Positions 14,621-31,964 of a stretch of 33,732 nt of DNA are shown piece by piece; the stretch's first letter is position 1; each line of letters starts with the position of its first letter. Position numbers and translations under genes: made by a program. The notes below the pieces were generated by a model that did no database searches, was not told the origin of the DNA, and saw nothing but the letters and a program-made list of their open reading frames with translations. Origin of the DNA: a virus; IMG/VR virus record IMGVR_UViG_3300033153_007392, positions 1 to 33,732 of that record, one strand, 5' to 3'.

Positions 14621-14660
14621 CCCATAACCATAAGCCCAAAAGGGCAAGGAGAAGGAAGAA

Positions 14661-15794
14661 ATGTCTAACACATTTGTAACACCTACGATGGTAGCGCGTG
14701 ACGCCGCTATAACCCTGGCTAACCGCCTTGTTGTCGGTAATATGGTTTCTCGTAACAAAGAAGGCATGTTCACCGCTGACAAGATCGGCGATTCTGTAAA
14801 GGTGACGGTGCCGCCCGCGGTTACTGATGCCGACGAATTCTCAACGTCAACTTCGGCTACGGACCAAACGGAAACGGAAATTGACCTTACGCTTGAAAAG
14901 CACTTCTATAAGCGCGTTGATTTGACCACGAAGCAAAAAAGCCTTGAGCTTTCAGACTTCACGCGCTTGATTACTGTACCCAACGTGCAGGGCATACAGT
15001 CAAGTATTGACAAGCTTTTCCTTCGTCACATGCAGGTTTTCCGTCAGAATCTTTCCGGGACTGTAACGGCAAGGCCAAGCACAATGGCTCACGTTGCCGC
15101 GGCTCAGAAGGCGCTTAAGGATTTATACGTTGGTGGAAATGACAACGTGTCCTTGATTGATACGACTGTACACCAGTCTCTTTCTCAGCTTACCAACTTC
15201 CAGACCCAGGATTACGGACCAGACGGCCCGGCGAATGGCCGCGAAGGTGAGCTTGGGCGCCGTTATGGGTTCGACTTCACCACCGACGCCAATCTTGGCG
15301 CCTTTGTTCGCTCCGCGGCGGCGGGGGATATAACCGGAACCGTTCTTACCAACGGAACCCCGGCTATTGGTGCAACGGCTGTGCCTATTGACGGCATAAC
15401 CAACGCAACCGGCACAATCTATGCGGGCACAGTCATTACCCTTGCCGGTGATGCAACTCGCTACGTTATCCGCAAGGACGCTACAATAGCTTCCAATGCA
15501 ACAACCCTCACGGTTTCCCCGCCATTGGTAGCGGCTCCTGGGGACGGTGCGGCGGTAACGTTTGAGGACGCTGGCTATTCCAACCTGGTTTACACACCGC
15601 GCGCTGTTGCGGGTGCTATCGTTGCACCTACTTCGCTTTCCGGCGGAAATAGCGCAGTTGCAAGCCACGGCGGCATAACTATCCGCGTAAGCATGGATTC
15701 AAGCATTGTTTCGCTTGCAGATTCCATTGTTTTCGATGTGTACGCAGGTTGCAGGGTTATTGAGCCGGACGGCGGCGCCCTGTTTTGTGGCTAA
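14661..15794 (+). CDS. Major capsid protein, P22 coat-like
   Basis: A 377-residue protein of the P22 coat family (HK97 fold). The N-terminus FVTPTMVARDAAITLANRLV, then GMFTADKIGDSVKVTVPP, the long EKHFYKRVDLTTKQ strand and the SLSGGNSAVASHGGITIR region are typical. Residues about 215-315 are an inserted beta-rich part with repeated small residues, like the insertion domain of this family. Located after the scaffold, with a strong AAGGAGAAGGAAG ribosome site fitting the most abundant virion protein. A structured 116-base gap follows. Confidence 0.85.
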   Translation: MSNTFVTPTMVARDAAITLANRLVVGNMVSRNKEGMFTADKIGDSVKVTVPPAVTDADEFSTSTSATDQTETEIDLTLEKHFYKRVDLTTKQKSLELSDFTRLITVPNVQGIQSSIDKLFLRHMQVFRQNLSGTVTARPSTMAHVAAAQKALKDLYVGGNDNVSLIDTTVHQSLSQLTNFQTQDYGPDGPANGREGELGRRYGFDFTTDANLGAFVRSAAAGDITGTVLTNGTPAIGATAVPIDGITNATGTIYAGTVITLAGDATRYVIRKDATIASNATTLTVSPPLVAAPGDGAAVTFEDAGYSNLVYTPRAVAGAIVAPTSLSGGNSAVASHGGITIRVSMDSSIVSLADSIVFDVYAGCRVIEPDGGALFCG

Positions 15795-15910: not shown

Positions 15911-16393
15911 ATGTTCAACAAGAGAAATATGTTACTGGGAATGATGGTTTTTGGCGTGCTGGCCCTTGCCCTTGCGGGCTGTAATGGATCCAAGCAAGTC
16001 CTGGGCGGAGATTCGTTTTACGATGCCCCCAACGTTACGGCCATTGAGCAGGGTCTAGCCAAAGTGGCAACGCCTGTTGCCGTGACAAACGACACAACGA
16101 ACACAACCGTAACCATAACCTTGGCCGACCTGGTTGGAACCGCTAAGACTGGTAAGACGCTTGTGCGTTGCTGGCTTTCAGCTACAGACGGGGGCGCCCC
16201 CGAAGCCAGTAGCAATGTGACCGTCGCAACTGGCGTTGAAATTCAGGAAGTCGTTGCAGAAGCCGACTACTGGGTTTTGACTACCGCCGCCGGGACTGCA
16301 TCCCTTACGGTTCTGGATGCTGGGGACACAAACTATTTCTGTACGTCAATCGGCGGGGGCGCGATTAGCTCCACTCCGATGATATTTGAATAG
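15911..16393 (+). CDS. Predicted lipoprotein in the head operon, 160 aa
   Basis: The N-terminus is a classical lipoprotein signal: a basic start (MFNKRN), a hydrophobic core, and the lipobox LAGC with Cys24. The mature part is Thr/Ala/Val-rich and beta-strand-like (VTITLADLVGTAKTGKTLVR, then VWLSATDGG-like), resembling a small Ig-like or decoration-type domain also seen in proteins near phage coat genes. If lipidated, it would go to the host envelope, which is unexpected between coat and connector genes. Alternatively the hydrophobic segment is part of a virion protein. GGGAG lies upstream of ATG 15911. Confidence 0.7.
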   Translation: MFNKRNMLLGMMVFGVLALALAGCNGSKQVLGGDSFYDAPNVTAIEQGLAKVATPVAVTNDTTNTTVTITLADLVGTAKTGKTLVRCWLSATDGGAPEASSNVTVATGVEIQEVVAEADYWVLTTAAGTASLTVLDAGDTNYFCTSIGGGAISSTPMIFE

Positions 16394-23210: not shown

Positions 23211-24803
23211 ATGGGTTTCCCCCTAAAATCGAACTTCAAGCCTGGCGACCCAACCGCATCCTTGCAAGCGAATTGGCTTAAGACGGTTGCGAATATCCTT
23301 AACGATGTTAAGGGGATCGGTTGCCATATTGACAAGCCCAACGGCGGCGAAGGTATGGGCTGGCAGATTGTTATTGATGAATCTGCAAGCGCGCAAGGCC
23401 GCGGCAACCGCTTCCTGGTTACTGATTTGACCGGCGGGGAAATCCAGGTAACAACTGGGATTTGGACCCGCTTAGGTATTCCCCTCGCCCTGGCAACGGA
23501 CGTAGGCGAAGAATTCCTTACCGTTGCTGGCATAGGCGCCAACGATTATGTGTACTTGAAGCTTAACGCTAGTTCGACAGACCCGGCTATCCGTCCAACG
23601 TCTATTACTGTTGAAAACGGCGGGTCTAACCCCAATTCCGGCGATATGGAAGGCGTTTACTGGGTCCTGGGCAAGTTTACGAATTCAGTTTGGAAGCCTT
23701 ACTGGGTTGGGGATATAGACGACTTCATGGTAATTCCAGACAGCGAAAGCGACTTCAACGTAACGGACCCGCCCGAAGATTACCGATACCACAGTCTTAA
23801 CTATGCCCACAGGTCCGGCTTACACCTTGGTAATTTGCAAATTCACCAATGGGATACCCCAAGCCAGGAACCTATAGTTGCCAACGATTTAATGATGTTC
23901 CGGGACACTTCCGACAACAATAAGCAGTTGAAATATATAAGCTTTGAAGACCTGGGCAATTATCTTTCTCTTAATATGCCAGTTGAAGGGGAAGGGAACC
24001 TGGGCGATAGAGTAGCCGACGACCTTAACAGCAACAGCAAGATTGAGCATACGCTATTGGACGCAACCAATACCACGCGGGGCGGGGAAGACAATTCATT
24101 TGCGGCCAACGTAGACCATAGCCTTGTGTATCTGGAAGCCTACAATATCGACAGCTACCTTAATGACGGGCGGACCTTTCGGACAACGGGGGACCAATGG
24201 GCGGCGGTCCTTCACGCTTCGGCGGACGGCACCACGGACACGCTGAAAATTGAGCCGGACGCAATAACGGCATTGGGCGCGCTGGCGTTTGATATAGGGG
24301 GCGCGGTTGATTTTGACGCAACAAGTATAGACATGGACATTACCGCGGGCATAGATATTCTGCTAGAAAGCCTGTTCAATCTGGAAAGCATAAGCGGCGC
24401 AATACAACTTAAGACAAACGCCGCGGAAACCAACATTGTAATTGACGCCGCCGCTGTTCTCGACCTTGACTGTACCGATTTGACTATTGATGCGGTCGCG
24501 GGCGCCGCCATAAGCACCAACGGCACCCTTGACCTGAATTGCGAAGACTTGGACATTGACGCCCTTACTTCGGCGGTCCTTAGCAGTCCGGTAATAACTC
24601 TTGAAGGCGGCGCGGGCGGAATTCATCTTGATAGTGACGCACAACTTGACTTAAGCCCGACAGGAATCCTATATATTAACGGAGTTGAGGCGCTAAGTAT
24701 TGCAGACTGGATAACCAAGGGCCTCTTAACGGGGCCTACCGTTGTTGAGAAAACGCGAAATCAGGTTGGCCCCAATGACAAAATACTGGTAATCCCGGCA
24801 TGA
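23211..24803 (+). CDS. Tail fibre/baseplate protein with repeated beta strands, 530 aa
   Basis: The N-terminal part (residues about 1-190) is a mixed domain beginning MGFPLKSNFKPGDP and containing WTRLGIPLALATDVGEEFL. The C-terminal 200 residues have irregular Asp-rich repeats of the type DLDCTDLTIDA, DLNCEDLDIDA and ITLEGGAGGIHL, consistent with a fibrous beta-helix or triple-stranded fold. It has no signal peptide, unlike the following proteins. Probably a receptor-binding or baseplate fibre. The last codons overlap the next start (ATGA). Confidence 0.75.
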   Translation: MGFPLKSNFKPGDPTASLQANWLKTVANILNDVKGIGCHIDKPNGGEGMGWQIVIDESASAQGRGNRFLVTDLTGGEIQVTTGIWTRLGIPLALATDVGEEFLTVAGIGANDYVYLKLNASSTDPAIRPTSITVENGGSNPNSGDMEGVYWVLGKFTNSVWKPYWVGDIDDFMVIPDSESDFNVTDPPEDYRYHSLNYAHRSGLHLGNLQIHQWDTPSQEPIVANDLMMFRDTSDNNKQLKYISFEDLGNYLSLNMPVEGEGNLGDRVADDLNSNSKIEHTLLDATNTTRGGEDNSFAANVDHSLVYLEAYNIDSYLNDGRTFRTTGDQWAAVLHASADGTTDTLKIEPDAITALGALAFDIGGAVDFDATSIDMDITAGIDILLESLFNLESISGAIQLKTNAAETNIVIDAAAVLDLDCTDLTIDAVAGAAISTNGTLDLNCEDLDIDALTSAVLSSPVITLEGGAGGIHLDSDAQLDLSPTGILYINGVEALSIADWITKGLLTGPTVVEKTRNQVGPNDKILVIPA

Positions 24804-26122
24804 AAAAAGTAATAGCCATATTCACCTTGATAGCCGCCGCCGCCTTCGGGCAAGGCAATACGGACCGCGATTTATTTATGACACCAAGCGGCAAGATGTA
24901 TAGTTCCGCGGGCGGATCCTATCGGGACGTATCCCAAGAGCTATCAATTGCCCGCACCAATTCATACCTGATAAAATCTTTCGTGGACCTGACGAATTAC
25001 GCGGCTGGGGTAACTGGAAGCGTAGTCTACCTGCGAGATAGTGCCTCTTATGAATTCAATGGCTTTGTCACCAACCCGCTTTCAATAAGGGTCGGCGTAT
25101 CGAATATCTTGTTTGGCAATAGCTGGGCAAATGATATTCTTTACTACACCGGGACGAATAGCGCGCTTATTTCATCGAATGACAATATTACCTTCCGCAC
25201 CTTCACCGTTTCTTCCACCAACGGAATAGGGTTGAGTATCCACAACACGAATTCGTCCTTGGTGTCTATTGAGAATATGGCGTTTGCTGATAACCAGACC
25301 TGTTTAGACCTGAATGGCGTTTACCGGCTACGGATTGCTGGGAGCATCTTCCGTGATTTTATCGGCACCGAAGCGGCCTACCTGTATGGGGCGGGGCATG
25401 AGTTGTTCTTATTTGATAATATCTTTGAAGCTGAAAATGCTGGCACCGTAACCAACGTAAATCTTGCGGGCACATGGGACGTTATAGACATAAGCAGAAA
25501 CTATTTTGACATGCACACCCAGGACGTTGCTATTGCTGGAATCGCTAACAACGGCAACATTGATACCGGCGGCGGATTGTTACAAGGTAATTTCTTTCGA
25601 TTGTCCGGGGGGGTTGTACTTCCGCACACCAACTATATTACTGGTCTGTCGCATGGTGACACTGATTGGGAATGGAATAGCAATTTTGGCGCAGATGATT
25701 CCGCGGCGGCGGGCGGTTTGGCCCTTACCAATGATACCATAATGCCAATTCTGGCAAAGGACACTTGGACCGTGGTAACTAATGATTTGCTTCCCTATGC
25801 CAAAGAGGAACGCTTTACTACGGCCTCAAATACGCTAACCTATACGGGCAATAGGGAAATTCCCGTAACTGCTGTTCTGACAATAAACTGGGAGCCTGAC
25901 ACAGGCAATAATCAGGCTCTTGTTTTTGCTGTATCTGTTAATGGTGTGCGGAATGGGTTTTTAAGAACACAGGGAGAGACAGGCGCGGGTACAGCCGTTA
26001 ACTCTATTACTACCTGGTTCTTAGAAGTGGATACCGGGGACAACATTACACTTGAAGTTATGAATACCACTTCTTCCAGGGATGTGCTATTTCATAATGT
26101 AAGGCTAGTGCTAAAGGAATAA
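24800..26122 (+). CDS. Secreted beta-helix tailspike-like protein, 440 aa
   Basis: A 440-residue protein with a Sec-type signal (MKKVIAIFTLIAAAAFG, likely cleavage near residue 18). Residues about 90-250 show irregular strands with NTNSS, DNQTCLDLNG and RIAGSIFRDF turns as in right-handed beta-helices of tailspikes and pectate-lyase folds. The last 125 residues (TWTVVTNDLLPYAKEERF to the end) look like a TNF/C1q-type jelly roll, a common trimerising or binding tip. A signal peptide on such a protein is unusual for a virion component. The start overlaps the preceding stop. Confidence 0.75.
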   Translation: MKKVIAIFTLIAAAAFGQGNTDRDLFMTPSGKMYSSAGGSYRDVSQELSIARTNSYLIKSFVDLTNYAAGVTGSVVYLRDSASYEFNGFVTNPLSIRVGVSNILFGNSWANDILYYTGTNSALISSNDNITFRTFTVSSTNGIGLSIHNTNSSLVSIENMAFADNQTCLDLNGVYRLRIAGSIFRDFIGTEAAYLYGAGHELFLFDNIFEAENAGTVTNVNLAGTWDVIDISRNYFDMHTQDVAIAGIANNGNIDTGGGLLQGNFFRLSGGVVLPHTNYITGLSHGDTDWEWNSNFGADDSAAAGGLALTNDTIMPILAKDTWTVVTNDLLPYAKEERFTTASNTLTYTGNREIPVTAVLTINWEPDTGNNQALVFAVSVNGVRNGFLRTQGETGAGTAVNSITTWFLEVDTGDNITLEVMNTTSSRDVLFHNVRLVLKE

Positions 26123-26127
26123 CGACA

Positions 26128-26400
26128 ATGAAAATGGTATTGTACGCTATCTTGGTTCTGCTTGTATGCGCCTCTTTTGTCTGTAGCTCCGAAGAAACGG
26201 CCACAGTTGTCCAAATCAAAGTCATAGGCACCAATACCCCTTCTTTCAAAACGATCACGCTTGATGGTTGGGAAATCATTTATGATAATGCCACCTGGAC
26301 GGGCCGCGTTACGAAGGTCGGAATAGCCGACACTAACGGGGCTATATGGCAAGTGACAGTATCAACCAACGGAACATTGACAGCCACGTTAAAACCATAA
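26128..26400 (+). CDS. Small secreted protein, 90 aa
   Basis: The N-terminus (MKMVLYAILVLLVCASFVCS) is a clear Sec signal or anchor. The two cysteines do not form a clean lipobox. The mature part of about 68 residues is beta-type (VVQIKVIGTNTPSF, then GWEIIYDNATWTGRVTKVG) and could be one small domain. It lies five bases after the tailspike-like gene and so belongs to the same transcript. Function unknown, probably envelope or surface located. Confidence 0.65.
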   Translation: MKMVLYAILVLLVCASFVCSSEETATVVQIKVIGTNTPSFKTITLDGWEIIYDNATWTGRVTKVGIADTNGAIWQVTVSTNGTLTATLKP

Positions 26401-26413
26401 GGAGCCTAGACAG

Positions 26414-26830
26414 ATGAAACTTATAGCCTTAATAACCGCGTTCTTACTTACGTCCTTCGCTACAGCGATTGCCGCGCCGCCGACAAGTATTGATTCCTAC
26501 TTTTCCAATTCCGTAGTTACCCAGGTGACATTTGCGGACGCAGGGGACACAGGCCTGGAAACGAACACCGTCTATATCTGCATTGAAATGACTACGTTGA
26601 CCAATTCAGAATACACCGCAACGCTTGTAACCAACGATGTGCGGCCCTTCATGTCGGCCATGATTAAGGAACTGGCGGCGGAGATACAAGCGAAGCCCAG
26701 CACTAACCGCTTTACAACGTTTACGATTGAAGAATCAACCGCCTTTTCCGGGCCGACCAACCGCGTTACCAGGCGGACGGTTAAGGAAACGCAAGAATTG
26801 GAAGTGACGCCCAGCTATCCGGGCAACTGA
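26414..26830 (+). CDS. Small secreted protein, 138 aa
   Basis: The signal peptide is strong: MKLIALITAFLLTSFATAIA, with a plausible cleavage at AIA-A. The mature protein has beta-type strands with Thr/Asn (SNSVVTQVTFADAGDTGLET), a central helix (RPFMSAMIKELAAEIQAK) and a Thr/Arg-rich end (TNRVTRRTVKETQELEVT). No family recognised. An AAGGAG ribosome site precedes ATG 26414. It shares the exported character of its neighbours. Confidence 0.65.
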   Translation: MKLIALITAFLLTSFATAIAAPPTSIDSYFSNSVVTQVTFADAGDTGLETNTVYICIEMTTLTNSEYTATLVTNDVRPFMSAMIKELAAEIQAKPSTNRFTTFTIEESTAFSGPTNRVTRRTVKETQELEVTPSYPGN

Positions 26831-26875
26831 GATATTGAACACCAACGGCTAAGATGCTAAAATGAAGGGCACAAC

Positions 26876-27127
26876 ATGAAGAAGAAAGCCAAAGCGAAGA
26901 AGAAGGCGAAACAGAAGAAAACCGCGAAGCCTCAGACCGGCTTAGTTATCCCCCTGGATGCCCAGGAAGCCGCGGTTGTAGTTAAGGGTCTGGTAAACCT
27001 TCCCTTGGCTATGAATAACCCCCTTTATAGTGCCGCCCAGCGCGTCATACAGCGCGTACAGGTAGGCGCCCAACAACTGGCAGAAAAACAACAGAAAAAA
27101 AAGCCCAAGGACGCCGCCCGCGGTTAA
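26876..27127 (+). CDS. Lysine-rich small protein, 83 aa
   Basis: The N-terminal 18 residues are almost all Lys/Ala (MKKKAKAKKKAKQKK), the middle is a mostly hydrophobic helix (VIPLDAQEAAVVVKGLVNLP), and the end is basic again (QQKKKPKDAARG). This is the only protein in the 24.8-29.7 kb block without a signal peptide. It could bind nucleic acid or membrane. The leader carries AAATGAAGGG with a five-codon upstream frame ending at its ATG. Confidence 0.6.
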   Translation: MKKKAKAKKKAKQKKTAKPQTGLVIPLDAQEAAVVVKGLVNLPLAMNNPLYSAAQRVIQRVQVGAQQLAEKQQKKKPKDAARG

Positions 27128-27146
27128 TCATTGGAAAGGTTGAAGA

Positions 27147-29702
27147 ATGAAATACATAAAAGAACTTTGTGCCATTGTAACCCTTGCGGCGTCTTTGGCC
27201 TACGCGGCCCCGTACACAACGGTAAGGTTTGAATCTCAAAACCCAGGCGAAGACAAGAACCTGGAAGCCAGCCAGCTAGGCACTACGGCCATAAGGGCGT
27301 ACAGCTACAGCGAAGGCACCATTAACACCTTGACAACCAACGACACCGGCATTTTTGGCTATGGGACCAATTGGGATCTTTCGGCGTCTATGGTCCTGGT
27401 TGAGGGAGCCGCGAACACCAACGGCAATTATTTTGACATAACGCTTGCTTCGTCAAACCTTCCGGCGAATGGGACATATTACTGGCAAATGCTCCAAACC
27501 AATAGCCAGAATTCAAGCCTGTACGTCCTGGGCAAAGGAACCCTTGACGTTATGCGGTCCCCCATTACCGGCGGCGCAACAGTCTTAAGTCTTCAACAGA
27601 TTGTTAACTGGGACGGCGTTGTCACCTTCGGGGCGCCCTGGGTTTCCACAAATGACACATCTTATTTGAACGGTCTAACCAACGGCGCCTTGGTTGAAGG
27701 TAGCACCAACGGCCTTGTAATTTCCGGGCGGACCTTCACGCTTACAATCAAAACCAACGAAGTTACCAGCGTTGCCGGCAGACAGGGGGACGTTGTTATT
27801 GTATCGGCGGATCTGGCCGACCTGGAAGCAACTATTTCCGCCAATGCCAGCGTTGCGGCCAATACGGCAAAAGCTACTTACCCCGTTGCCGACTCTAACA
27901 AGGTTGCCGGCATAGAAGCTCTGGCTGATGTTACAGACACAGACAACGTAAGAGCCGCCGGCGCTCTAATGGACGATGAAGTGGACGCCGACCTTAAGAC
28001 CTTCGTGCTTCCAGCGGATACGACAATTTCAGCCTATGGAAAAACCCTTGTGGACGATGCCGACGCCGCGACGGCGCGCACTACCCTGGGCGTTATCATA
28101 GGAACAACGGTGCAAGGATGGTCCGCAATCCTTGACGGCATGACTTCTATTTTTACGGTTGCCATGTCGAACAAGTTGGCCGGTATTGAAGCGTCCGCGG
28201 ACGTAACCGACGCGGACAACGTAATCGCGGCGGGCGCGTTTATGAAAGATGGTTCAATACCCGCGACAGGCAATTGGGACTTGGACGGCTATTCAATTAT
28301 TGGCATAGGAACCAACAGCCTAACCTTTTCCAACGGGGACAAAATATCAATTGTTGGCACCAACCTATGGTTTATAAGGTCCGGCTCTAAGAGTAACCAA
28401 TTGGACGGCGCAAGCGATATTGAAATGTCCGCGGCGAATGAAAACATTTCGGCCAACGCTTCGCTTATCACAACACACCACACCGAAAATGTGGCGGACA
28501 TAGGGCGCAACGCCAATAATATCCTGGCTAACGGTTTCCGCATTGCCGTGAACGGTAGCCTTACAGCATTTGACTATGAGGACGGCTGGCTGGATGAATT
28601 TGAGGACCAGTCCGGGGTTGCTACCGCGCTGGGTTCAAATTTCACATACGATGCCGCGAGTGATTACTATTCCTACGCCGCGCAAGTATCGGTTACTTTT
28701 CCAACCGGCATATTAGCGCATTACAAAATGAATGACGACGCCGCAAATGTGTATGTTACAGATGAAACGGCGGGGCATCCAGGCGGCTTAAACGGCGGGG
28801 ATGATACCGCGGACTTGTCGGTTGCGGGCAAGCTCAATGAAGCCTTGCACATGGACGGCGCTAATGATTGGGTGGACTTGACAAACAACTTTAGCGGCGT
28901 CAAGTCAATGGTCTTTTGGGCATATAATGATACTGAGCTAGGGGCCGCTGAGACAGCGCGGGGCCTCATTGGTTGCGGGCATGGTCAATATCCCTTCTTG
29001 CTTTTCGGCAACTTCTCAGGTGGGTTAGCAGACGAATTTCTGTCCATTGGTGTGTCTGACGGCACGCATTGGTGGAATCAAACCGACATAGGGGGCAATA
29101 TCGCTGTAGGCTGGCACCATTACGCAATAGTATGGGACGGGGTTTCAACTTACCGGCTTTACATTGATAATGTTGATAAAGGTCTAGCAAGGGAAGATTC
29201 CGCACCTTCGGAAGCGGCCACTTGGAACGCCGCCCGCTACGGAGTGGCTAATACGTTTGAATGGGATGGTCCATTGGACCAAGGGATTATATATAACAAT
29301 AGTCTTAGCGCCGCAGATGTGGCGTTACTTTGGAACGGCGGCGATGGTACGGAATCAATTACCGGAACTGAGGGCGCGGGCGGCAACATGGAGTTAATCT
29401 CGACTAACGCCTTTGTTTCTATCTCTGGCAATCCAGTCGAAGCAAGGGTTATGGTCTTGCACGAAAATATAACAGGTGTGGCCGTATTGAATACCGATCT
29501 AAAGGCCTTTGCTTCAAGCGACCAGGGCACGAACTGGAACCAGATAACGCTTACGGACATTGGCGAATTGTCCGCGGGTATTTCTATGTATGCTGGAACA
29601 AACGCCTTAACCGGCTCAAGCTCCAACATGGCGGTAAGGGTTACGACACACAACACCAACCAAGCGGGCCGCGTTCACGGTTGGTCCGAATTATGGAAAT
29701 AA
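27147..29702 (+). CDS. Secreted LamG fibre-like protein, 851 aa
   Basis: The N-terminus has a Sec-type signal peptide (MKYIKELCAIVTLAASLAYA, cleavage at about 20), followed by a beta-rich domain (residues 25-150) similar to phage upper-baseplate/fibre N-terminal domains. Two copies of SNKxAGIEAxADVTDxDN lie near residues 250 and 340, as in many tail fibres. Residues about 520-740 form a LamG/concanavalin-like sugar-binding domain (ILAHYKMNDDA, HMDGANDWVDL, GWHHYAIVWDG, YRLYIDNV). The C-terminal 110 residues are beta-type (EARVMVLHENITG). The best receptor-binding candidate, but the signal peptide would send it to the periplasm or outside. Confidence 0.75.
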   Translation: MKYIKELCAIVTLAASLAYAAPYTTVRFESQNPGEDKNLEASQLGTTAIRAYSYSEGTINTLTTNDTGIFGYGTNWDLSASMVLVEGAANTNGNYFDITLASSNLPANGTYYWQMLQTNSQNSSLYVLGKGTLDVMRSPITGGATVLSLQQIVNWDGVVTFGAPWVSTNDTSYLNGLTNGALVEGSTNGLVISGRTFTLTIKTNEVTSVAGRQGDVVIVSADLADLEATISANASVAANTAKATYPVADSNKVAGIEALADVTDTDNVRAAGALMDDEVDADLKTFVLPADTTISAYGKTLVDDADAATARTTLGVIIGTTVQGWSAILDGMTSIFTVAMSNKLAGIEASADVTDADNVIAAGAFMKDGSIPATGNWDLDGYSIIGIGTNSLTFSNGDKISIVGTNLWFIRSGSKSNQLDGASDIEMSAANENISANASLITTHHTENVADIGRNANNILANGFRIAVNGSLTAFDYEDGWLDEFEDQSGVATALGSNFTYDAASDYYSYAAQVSVTFPTGILAHYKMNDDAANVYVTDETAGHPGGLNGGDDTADLSVAGKLNEALHMDGANDWVDLTNNFSGVKSMVFWAYNDTELGAAETARGLIGCGHGQYPFLLFGNFSGGLADEFLSIGVSDGTHWWNQTDIGGNIAVGWHHYAIVWDGVSTYRLYIDNVDKGLAREDSAPSEAATWNAARYGVANTFEWDGPLDQGIIYNNSLSAADVALLWNGGDGTESITGTEGAGGNMELISTNAFVSISGNPVEARVMVLHENITGVAVLNTDLKAFASSDQGTNWNQITLTDIGELSAGISMYAGTNALTGSSSNMAVRVTTHNTNQAGRVHGWSELWK

Positions 29703-29986: not shown

Positions 29987-30367
29987 ATGTACGGAAAATT
30001 GACGGTTATGATTGCGGGCGCGGTTGCCATGCCGGCTTTGTCTCACTTGGCACAACTCAATGTTGACACCACGGCGGGGAAGCTTGCCCATGCTTCGGCC
30101 CAGGGCGTTCTTGCTCTTGTCGTTGTCGCGGAAGCTGTTGCCATTATTTTCATGTTCAAGCAATGGCGTAACGATGTTGCTAAGAACCAGGAGCAAGTAG
30201 AAGAAAGGGCTGGAAAGCTTATTGAACTCATTTCAGAAAACACCGCTGTAATTGCTCAGAATAATGACGCCAGCCACAGAAGCGCGCGCGCAACGGAAGA
30301 CTTCCAAAAGACAGTTGCCAGGCATACGGAAGTAATAGCCCGATGCGACAGGGGGAAGGATGATTAG
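29987..30367 (+). CDS. Holin or inner spanin-like membrane protein, 126 aa
   Basis: A clear hydrophobic helix at residues about 38-58 (GVLALVVVAEAVAIIFMF) is preceded by a weaker hydrophobic segment (LTVMIAGAVAMPAL). After the helix comes a coiled-coil-like charged tail (KNQEQVEERAGKLIELISEN) of about 65 residues. One-helix plus coiled-coil topology fits an inner spanin; two helices would fit a holin. The Rz1-like lipoprotein gene overlaps its end, as inner and outer spanin genes often do, so spanin is slightly preferred. Confidence 0.55.
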   Translation: MYGKLTVMIAGAVAMPALSHLAQLNVDTTAGKLAHASAQGVLALVVVAEAVAIIFMFKQWRNDVAKNQEQVEERAGKLIELISENTAVIAQNNDASHRSARATEDFQKTVARHTEVIARCDRGKDD

Positions 30368-30587
30368 AAGCCCCCGGAAAGCGTCCATTTGGGCCTTCAT
30401 GGCCCTTGTGCTGGTTTTGGCGGTTCTGGCGTTGCCAGGCTGTACCAAGGCGCCCCTGGGGAATACAGGGCCTATTTATCCCTATCCTGGGGAACTCCTG
30501 GACAATGACGGCAACCCGGTCCAGCCGCCGACCTGGACAAACCGGCCCCCAACCAATTCGGGAAGCTATGAGGAAGCCATGCCATGA
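30360..30587 (+). CDS. Rz1-like outer-membrane lipoprotein (outer spanin candidate)
   Basis: A 75-residue protein with a signal and lipobox LPGC (Cys28). The mature part of 48 residues is proline-rich (PIYPYPGELL, then QPPTWTNRPP), as in outer spanins such as Rz1. No Asp follows the cysteine, so it should reach the outer membrane. Its gene overlaps the preceding membrane protein by eight bases. Together they would fuse the inner and outer membranes at lysis. This supports a Gram-negative-type host. Confidence 0.65.
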   Translation: MIRSPRKASIWAFMALVLVLAVLALPGCTKAPLGNTGPIYPYPGELLDNDGNPVQPPTWTNRPPTNSGSYEEAMP

Positions 30588-31354
30588 CAGAAAACGGCAT
30601 TAAAGACGGCATTATTGAAGACCCCCTGGCCTGGCAAGGCGCATTGAGCCGGTCCGCGCCGCTGGGCGCCCCCCCGGATAAGCCCGTAACCAAGAAATAC
30701 CCGCCTGTAAGTATGTGGTTTTCCTGCATGGTCCCGACTTACCGCCAGCATGGGGAAAGTTGCGTAGGCCACTCCTGGGCAAATTGGATTGAAGGCATGG
30801 TAAGGCGCTGGATTGACCCCCTGGGGATCCCCAAGGACTGCCAGATAGACGGCCAAGCGATTTGGGCGCAAGGCCGCAAGATGTTCTGGAATGGCAACAT
30901 GCAGGGCGGCCTTTACATAGACCAGGGATATAAGGCCGCGGTTGCCCTGGGCTGGCTTCCCGCGGATAGCGCCCTGGTAAAGGTCCCCCAGGACTGGAAC
31001 ACCATAAACAAGTATTTGGCGGCTTCCCCGATGGTCCAGGGGCACAGTTTGACGCAAGCCTGGTTCAATGCTTCCCCGGAGTCCGGCTGTATAGACTACA
31101 GCGCCCCCAAGACGCCCAAGGGCGGCCATGCAACGCTTCTTATTGCAACCCTTGAACGGCAAGACACAGAGGGCATTTTGACGCGCTGGCGGGTCCTTAT
31201 GAATTCCTGGGGGCGCAACCGGGGCCGGTACGGATTCTTCACCATGAAGGATAAGACCTGGCTGGATACCGCTATAGCAGATTGTCCATATACGGCCAGA
31301 ATTCGGGATATTGACGCCTGGGACGGCTGGAAAGGCGGCTTGATTAAGCTATGA
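30584..31354 (+). CDS. Papain-family (C1) cysteine peptidase
   Basis: A 256-residue protein with all catalytic elements of papain-like peptidases: oxyanion Gln55 and Cys60 in RQHGESCVGHSWAN, His182 in KGGHATLLI, and Asn207 in MNSWGRNRGRYGFF. The NSWG box is diagnostic. No signal peptide and no propeptide of usual length are present. It lies after the Rz1-like gene, where an endolysin is expected, and no lysozyme, amidase or transglycosylase is seen elsewhere. It may cleave peptide bonds of the host wall or a protein layer, or may process virion or host proteins. Ends in an overlap with the DUF1353 gene. Confidence 0.85.
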   Translation: MTENGIKDGIIEDPLAWQGALSRSAPLGAPPDKPVTKKYPPVSMWFSCMVPTYRQHGESCVGHSWANWIEGMVRRWIDPLGIPKDCQIDGQAIWAQGRKMFWNGNMQGGLYIDQGYKAAVALGWLPADSALVKVPQDWNTINKYLAASPMVQGHSLTQAWFNASPESGCIDYSAPKTPKGGHATLLIATLERQDTEGILTRWRVLMNSWGRNRGRYGFFTMKDKTWLDTAIADCPYTARIRDIDAWDGWKGGLIKL

Positions 31355-31872
31355 CCAGGGCTGAAAAATACGGCCATTGGACCGGGACCTATGAGCTAAG
31401 GCCTATTCCTATCCCTGACTGGTCGGACTTGCCCTGGTATAAGCGGGCCTGGAAGCGCGCGACCTACACCGCCCTTTACGAGTTTCTTAACGATAAGGTG
31501 ACGCCCTTGACCCTCATGGACCGCAAAGGCGCCCTTTGGCGGCCCGACAATCACCTTATAACGGATATGGGAAGCGTCCCGAAGCGATTGCAAGGGCTTA
31601 TTCCCTGGTTGTTCGCGAAGGATCTTTGGCTTAGGGATTACATTTTGCATGATAGCGCCTATAAAATGGGCGGTTTGTGGGCTTCGGACGGGACGAAGGC
31701 CTTTGTATTCGTTCACATTACCCGCGCCCAGGCGGACAATCTGCTTTCCATGTCAATCAAGGCTTCCGGCGGCGGCTCCTTTAGCTCTGGCCCTATCTGG
31801 CTGGGCGTAAGGGTTGGCGGCGGCGGATCCTGGAACAAGGGGGACTTAAGGAACACCTTGCCCCCGAAATAA
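31351..31872 (+). CDS. DUF1353 family protein, 173 aa
   Basis: Carries the DUF1353 pattern ITDMGSVPKRLQGLIP, followed by DYILHDSAYKMGGLW, and a C-terminal HITRAQADNLLSMSI. The family is widespread in phages and its function is not established; the TD-GSVP and HD-Y residues suggest a metal or catalytic site. It comes directly after the cysteine peptidase (overlap ATGA) and ends the late operon. The C-terminus is glycine/serine-rich and looks disordered. Co-transcription suggests a joint role with the peptidase, perhaps in lysis. Confidence 0.8.
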   Translation: MTRAEKYGHWTGTYELRPIPIPDWSDLPWYKRAWKRATYTALYEFLNDKVTPLTLMDRKGALWRPDNHLITDMGSVPKRLQGLIPWLFAKDLWLRDYILHDSAYKMGGLWASDGTKAFVFVHITRAQADNLLSMSIKASGGGSFSSGPIWLGVRVGGGGSWNKGDLRNTLPPK

Positions 31873-31923
31873 TTTCTTTGCTGGCCTGGGTTACCTTCAT
31901 TTCCCAGGTACATGCTGACCCGA

Positions 31924-31964
31924 CGCCCTGGCGGACTTTATGACCCCGCCGGGGCGCCCCTTTT
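31924..31964 (+). terminator. Terminator at the end of the late operon
   Basis: CGCCCTGGCGG (31924-31934) pairs with CCGCCGGGGCG (31946-31956): ten Watson-Crick pairs and one T-G wobble, with an 11-base loop. CCCC then TTTTC follows. The T-tract is short, but the position 50 bases after the last late gene fits. Confidence 0.55.

Follow-up and report, generated by a model that had tools for sequence, protein, structure and literature searches.

The gene at 30584-31354 of a viral genome from IMG/VR encodes a papain-fold cysteine peptidase that is probably a late lysis enzyme, placed in the slot normally held by an endolysin. We favor this assignment because of the fold and catalytic triad, the overlaps that tie the gene to its neighbors, the adjacency of papain and lipoprotein genes kept in a sister phage, the lack of any known murein hydrolase, the pairing with a DUF1353 gene, the lysins found near papain genes in other viral records, the C1 fusions of other phages, and the lysis cassette of Gordonia phage Aleemily. 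It is weakened because phage C1 genes also occur outside lysis modules (Streptomyces phage Sycamore and the viral record G047) and because the depletion of conventional lysins among papain-bearing records was not significant. It is weakened further because the sister phage has no DUF1353 match, the DUF1353 match of the window scores under its cut-off, and the holin and i-spanin candidates are without profile support. We also know of no C1-family peptidase that acts as a murein hydrolase, which counts against a lysis role. D-amino acids and gamma links occur in the peptides of the bacterial wall.

The window analyzed here is the whole of record IMGVR_UViG_3300033153_007392, a stretch of 33,732 bases. 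Because it carries a 114-base direct terminal repeat, the genome is very probably complete.

The papain-fold enzyme and its gene block

The first-pass annotation had described the protein as a papain-like peptidase with the triad Cys60/His182/Asn207 and Gln55, and this description was confirmed by a Pfam match, a phmmer search of the PDB, the homologue of the sister phage, and comparison of an AlphaFold2 model with xylellain. In Pfam, PF03051 (Peptidase_C1_2) matched residues 182 to 228 only, with an E value of 5.5e-5 and 22.6 bits, the cut-off being 22; of the models suggested at first pass, those of CHAP and NlpC/P60 did not match. Searches of PHROGs and NCBIfam returned no match. The PF00112 profile, which is matched by 77 of the 79 members of our C1 alignment, gave no match to the window papain up to an E value of 1, and we therefore term the protein C1-like rather than C1A. 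It was also not among the 76 of 79 alignment members matched by phrog_16701 ("peptidase"). Since PF03051 was the only Pfam match, and no known murein-hydrolase catalytic domain was matched in Pfam, PHROGs, or NCBIfam, we do not file the protein in any known endolysin family; our claim is that it works as an endolysin. Neither a signal peptide of its own nor a cell-wall-binding domain was found. With phmmer, the PDB yielded bleomycin hydrolase (E 3e-4) and xylellain (3ois, E 3e-3), and the profile A4 reached 3ois at an E value of 3.8e-88. Membership in the bleomycin hydrolases was rejected, as the PF03051 match is confined to residues 182-228 and xylellain is the nearer structure by fold.

AlphaFold2 run with a 2-sequence alignment gave a pLDDT of only 33.5. 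With an alignment of 79 proteins, taken from a non-redundant set of 96 C1 proteins (the 17 omitted include short or edge ORFs and L014), the model reached a pLDDT of 81.6 and a pTM of 0.84. The comparison of predicted structures proposed at first pass placed xylellain on top in VIA-align (Z 20.4, rmsd 2.8, 211 residues, 23% identity); Der p 1 came second (Z 18.6). The top matches in Foldseek were falcipain (E 4e-9), cathepsins, and xylellain, at E values of about 1e-8. These matches make the papain fold and the triad secure. The order Cys60-His182-Asn207 is that of papain, and xylellain, from Xylella fastidiosa, shares both fold and Cys-His-Asn triad with the window enzyme. Gln55, the candidate for the oxyanion hole, lies in a block (residues 51 to 60) modeled at lower confidence (pLDDT 66). 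In both the window and the sister phage it precedes the cysteine with a spacing of 5, whereas the spacing is 6 in the DQGxLGSC motif that is usual among viral C1 proteins elsewhere. The viral C1 family of phrog_16701 has the papain fold and the triad in common with the window enzyme, which differs in this spacing and in escaping the profile. Viral C1 proteins are a divergent group, and identity of the window enzyme to the other members is about 20%; tblastn found no homologue in phages and plasmids, and patterns derived from the single sequence found none in viral contigs.

The papain gene belongs to a block that follows the tail and fiber genes (23211-29702). End-to-start overlaps link the genes starting at 29987, 30360, 30584, and 31351, the last codons of the lipoprotein gene overlapping the papain start (Table 1).

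Table 1. Features of the papain gene block in the window
Feature	Position	Strand	Basis
Protein of 89 aa whose N terminus carries one hydrophobic segment	29712..29981	+	19-residue stretch starting at residue 5 with hydropathy 2.9; no notable Pfam or PHROG match
126-aa membrane protein, hydrophobic at about residues 39-57 and, beyond them, hydrophilic and probably coiled coil	29987..30367	+	ORF, hydropathy
75-aa lipoprotein, proline-rich mature part of about 48 aa with 10 Pro	30360..30587	+	LPGC lipobox, Cys28
Papain-fold cysteine peptidase, 256 aa	30584..31354	+	ATG start; Gln55, Cys60, His182, Asn207; PF03051, PDB matches, AlphaFold2, 57%-identical homologue
DUF1353-like protein, 173 aa	31351..31872	+	PF07087 E 6.9e-4, 19.6 bits against a cut-off of 22.5; phrog_1158 E 5.2e-9
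Strong GC-rich hairpin of 11 bp, no T tract	31924..31956	+	50 bases past the gene block

The first gene of the table possibly encodes a small membrane or exported lysis protein. The 126-aa product, a candidate holin or i-spanin, had weak matches to the Rz-like phrog_89 (E 0.46) and to FtsL (E 0.007, below cut-off). The next product has the layout of an Rz1-type outer spanin, being a small proline-rich lipoprotein whose start overlaps the stop of the gene before it, and from this layout it would be o-spanin-like. A spanin-like lipoprotein ahead of the papain had been noted at first pass; the lipoprotein itself stood, on its LPGC motif, Cys28, and overlap, but spanin identity gained no profile support, the Rz-like phrog_89 match being merely the best one of the gene before the lipoprotein. 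Its PF07087 score being under the cut-off, we file the product downstream of the papain as DUF1353-like; phrog_1158, which it matches, comprises the phage proteins annotated as DUF1353. It is a putative phospholipase A2-like lysis companion. The hairpin past the block is a possible transcript end: the RNA fold of 31840-31960 had an energy of -49.9 kcal/mol (z -4.18), a stability that none of 200 shuffles reached, and a terminator scan did not detect the hairpin.

A pattern search brought up a sister phage, IMGVR 3300023284_001561, with 32,883 bases and a 144-base terminal repeat. The two genomes share their structural module (portal 75% and coat 67% identical). The sister papain is 57% identical to that of the window, keeps the Cys, His, Asn, and Gln, and is encoded directly 3' of a lipoprotein homologous to the window's (50% identical over 52 aa). 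A protein of the same block (L008:8279-8755) has a layout like that of the 126-aa membrane/coiled-coil protein. Downstream of the papain, where the window has DUF1353, the sister phage encodes two other proteins. One is DUF3060-like and starts with a stretch resembling a signal peptide; the other matches Peptidase_C92, the permuted papain-like YaeF/YiiX family, below threshold (E 0.0026). No DUF1353 match was found in this genome. The further relatives of the window phage (L002, L003, L020, and L022) are fragments that end short of the lysis block. Searches of bacterial and archaeal genome contigs for a host gave 9 stretches with the papain alignment and 96 with the portal alignment, none of them a relative. 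No host emerged from them, and the first-pass idea that the enzyme reflects an unusual host envelope was neither strengthened nor weakened.

A gene for a CheY-like receiver domain lies on the minus strand of the sister phage (L008:7923-8282, PF00072 E 4e-8), flanked in its lysis block by the genes of the lipoprotein and of the membrane/coiled-coil protein. The sister phage (L012/L013) also encodes a protein that matches the second domain of Mtd (PF21916 E 1.8e-8) and a Laminin_G_3 protein, and the window is without recognizable counterparts of these receptor-binding parts.

C1 papains of other phages and the proposed substrate of the enzyme

C1-type genes are present in at least 120 viral contigs, as counted with a looser DNA pattern. 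We aligned 107 C1 proteins, including that of the window, which were collected by a DNA pattern for the stretch NxWG...G..GxF and retained only if they had the Cys and His motifs; the triad is invariant in 107/107, which is no independent proof, since those columns served for the selection. By crude gene calls, small membrane proteins occurred near 20 of 63 viral papains and near 33 of 166 other genes. They are thus only somewhat commoner near viral papains, which counts against a lysis role; we did not use the idea that viral papains generally lie beside small membrane proteins.

Several phages join C1 domains to wall-directed parts. The endolysin annotated in Alicyclobacillus phage MMB025 (PV686781) resembles the window enzyme in its C1 domain and differs in being a 753-aa protein that combines Peptidase_C1 with an Rv2525c-like glycoside hydrolase and PG_binding_1, whereas the window enzyme has a single domain and no wall-binding part. 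L064 is a fusion of Peptidase_C1 with SH3_3, and the C1-fold models in BFVD include proteins that, by name only, are "Peptidoglycan binding-like" and "N acetylmuramidase." In Gordonia phage Aleemily, gene 29 encodes a C1 cysteine protease within the lysis cassette, between the lysin A genes and the holin. Gordonia phages carry additional recognized wall enzymes, either a lysin A amidase and C39 (as Aleemily does besides its C1 gene) or a glycoside hydrolase, whereas profiles found no such enzyme in the window phage. The cysteine protease-like gp29 of BetterKatz was a predicted endolysin in 2016, and the available portions of that report do not give its papain family (PMC4982276). A text search of PMC9671378, on the lysis cassettes of Gordonia phages, found no mention of a cysteine protease or papain. 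Other C1 genes lie elsewhere: that of Sycamore is beside tRNAs, outside a lysis module.

Papain-superfamily phage lysins are already known. CHAP, NlpC/P60, and the C39-like N5 domain of mycobacteriophage Lysin A belong to the same clan according to the available parts of PMC10318531 and PMC3314691, the latter of which had placed the N5 lysin domains in the papain family in 2012. These lysins are of other families than the window protein, which is matched by none of their Pfam models. The strategy had been called unusual at first pass. It is not unprecedented, as C1 genes are common and the MMB025 endolysin, the Gordonia cassette, and the BetterKatz prediction come before it; on the other hand, a single-domain C1-like papain as the sole lysin candidate, paired with DUF1353, was not found in the literature searched, which also yielded no paper linking a C1 papain to DUF1353.

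In the mechanism that we propose, the membrane protein encoded from 29712 or from 29987 would open the inner membrane. The papain-fold enzyme, lacking an export signal of its own, would escape to the envelope and cut peptide bonds there. The o-spanin-like lipoprotein and the phospholipase A2-like DUF1353 enzyme would then handle the outer membrane. We infer the export of the enzyme, its substrate, and all of the neighbor roles. As to the substrate, our leading candidate, at just short of an even call, is the stems or cross-bridges of peptidoglycan; envelope proteins are otherwise an unlikely target. The C1 fusions of other phages favor the wall, and the closest solved structures are ordinary proteases.

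An enzyme acting in the same place and at the same time could instead digest wall-anchored lipoproteins, outer-membrane proteins, or an S-layer, with lysis resulting from their loss together with lipid cleavage by the DUF1353 enzyme. We rate this as unlikely, although it is in line with the proteases among the closest structures (xylellain, cathepsins, and falcipain), with the missing cell-wall-binding domain, and with Aleemily, where a C1 gene additional to amidase and C39 lysins fits an extra target. Elsewhere, however, phages join the C1 domain to a peptidoglycan-binding, glycoside-hydrolase, or SH3 domain, which counts against this reading.

Search for a conventional lysin

At the level of profiles, the first-pass statement that the genome encodes no conventional murein hydrolase was borne out. 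No such enzyme was found among the 54 other ORFs of the window (Pfam, E<=0.01; 18 families found in all). A six-frame search for the lysozyme GH24 (PF00959), Amidase_2 (PF01510), M15_3 (PF08291), and GH108 (PF05838) gave none in the window or in the sister phage, and the 52 ORFs of the latter gave, in the Pfam search for murein hydrolases, only the sub-threshold Peptidase_C92.

Such a lack is common in viral records, 36 of 49 control records being without all three of the lysin families compared, and it therefore weighs little. An unrecognized conventional murein hydrolase could accordingly be encoded by another ORF, the papain being an accessory or a host-takeover protease. This is allowed for by the controls and by the window ORFs, most of which have no Pfam match, but two complete genomes of the group are without such a hydrolase and both conserve the papain at the end of the late block; we consider a hidden hydrolase distinctly improbable.

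We also compared papain-bearing records with control records, using three lysin families and controls drawn by a random 14-mer, and omitting the window and the sister phage because both had prompted the idea of a replacement. Of the 48 papain records, 6 had a conventional lysin scoring over the cut-off, as did 13 of the 49 controls, a difference in the expected direction that was not significant (Fisher p = 0.12). We rejected the idea that papains replace conventional lysins across papain phages. For the window itself, the first-pass proposal that the papain is the envelope-degrading lysis enzyme is partly supported, by the fold, the overlapping late block, the absence of a lysin by profile, the DUF1353 neighbor, and the recurrence of that pairing, but not by lysin depletion.

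One of four lysin families was found in 7 of 50 papain records (GH108, searched in the papain set only, in 1/50). In four of the seven (G009, G013, G019, and G036), the lysin lay within 2 kb of the papain, where 0.9 would be expected; the naive P of 0.006 ignores the general clustering of late genes.

DUF1353 as a putative companion of lysis genes

The available portions of PMC11525133 report that one DUF1353 protein, from outside phages, is a phospholipase A2, and that the authors expect likewise for others. They also describe single chains that combine DUF1353 with lysozyme and protease domains, and they note a resemblance to prophage proteins. In 9 of 12 phage records, a DUF1353 gene lay at most 4 genes from an annotated wall hydrolase or peptidase (Funu2, phiRTG5, Sf11, Bjorn, Cygsa01, NrS-3, DMCA, ctjLE16, and IME207), the 12 having been hand-picked for variety, not at random, from 40 of 42 matches, with Sf11 and IME207 alike. 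The other three (a Helicobacter prophage, SNW-1, and Bakedbeans) had no such enzyme nearby. In Pseudomonas phage Bjorn, Shigella phage Sf11, and Salmonella phage IME207, DUF1353 comes directly after or near the wall enzyme, and the lysozyme gene of Bjorn overlaps the start of DUF1353, as the window papain gene overlaps its own DUF1353. The wall enzyme of these three phages is a recognized lysozyme or endolysin, whereas its counterpart in the window is a papain.

PHROGs labels phrog_1158 "tail assembly chaperone," and the label has been copied into RefSeq records. It looks wrong, because the DUF1353 members of the family are mostly in lysis cassettes and the one DUF1353 protein tested has phospholipase A2 activity.

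The pairing of papain and DUF1353 recurs in two viral records that are unrelated. Besides the window, DUF1353 occurred in 2 of 100 papain-bearing viral records (G047 and G050), both times on the same strand as the papain and neighboring it. The order in G050 (L143) is a membrane protein of XhlA-like layout, more small membrane proteins, a lipoprotein, a signal-peptide protein, papain, and DUF1353. Judged by sequence, this arrangement is like that of the window, with holin-like membrane proteins, a lipoprotein, papain, and DUF1353. In G047, one small ORF separates the two genes, and the pair lies among head genes, between the portal and the head protease; this position argues for a traveling pair of papain and DUF1353, but not for a lysis block there.

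Least probable of the alternatives is a virion or assembly protease that would cut structural proteins such as tail fibers or be packaged in the particle: the papain gene does follow the tail and fiber genes, the G047 pair does lie among head genes, and PHROGs names the common viral C1 family (phrog_16701) merely "peptidase," but the window gene comes after the head genes, not within them, and overlaps the lipoprotein and DUF1353 genes on either side, its product has no tail-associated domain, and the coat protein is P22-like (PF11651). P22 heads are not known to need a protease to mature, and with such a coat a head-maturation protease in particular is held unlikely.

If the window enzyme is indeed a lysin, true C1 peptidases would be added to the lysis enzymes of the CHAP, NlpC/P60, and C39 types, and the common C1 genes of uncultivated phages would be candidates for a large unrecognized class of lysins. 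DUF1353 would provide a simple marker, a lipid enzyme that accompanies whichever wall enzyme is present and flags the lysis gene where profiles fail, and the breaching of the envelope by cleavage of both proteins and lipids in some phages would become testable. In its furthest form, the proposal is that the phage has no dedicated murein hydrolase and lyses its host with a pair of C1 papain and DUF1353 phospholipase A2, encoded by overlapping genes together with a lipoprotein, and that the many C1 papains of uncultivated phages include an overlooked lysis class of the same plan; we regard this as a long shot.

Other features of the window lie outside the papain block. ARAGORN called a tRNA-Gly(acc) at 14651-14729 on the minus strand, opposite the first part of the coat gene; the call is most likely spurious. 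The ORF at 15911-16393, after the coat gene, has a lipobox. Four consecutive tail or fiber ORFs (24800-26122, 26128-26400, 26414-26830, and 27147-29702) begin like Sec signal peptides, and fiber-region proteins of the sister phage and of G050 are likewise signal-peptide-like; export signals on structural proteins would be odd for a phage. Finally, the window has an FtsK gamma DNA-binding domain (PF09397, E 2.6e-12), probably in ORF 2201-2434, with a homologue in the sister phage, and a phage that reads host KOPS-like sites would be unusual.
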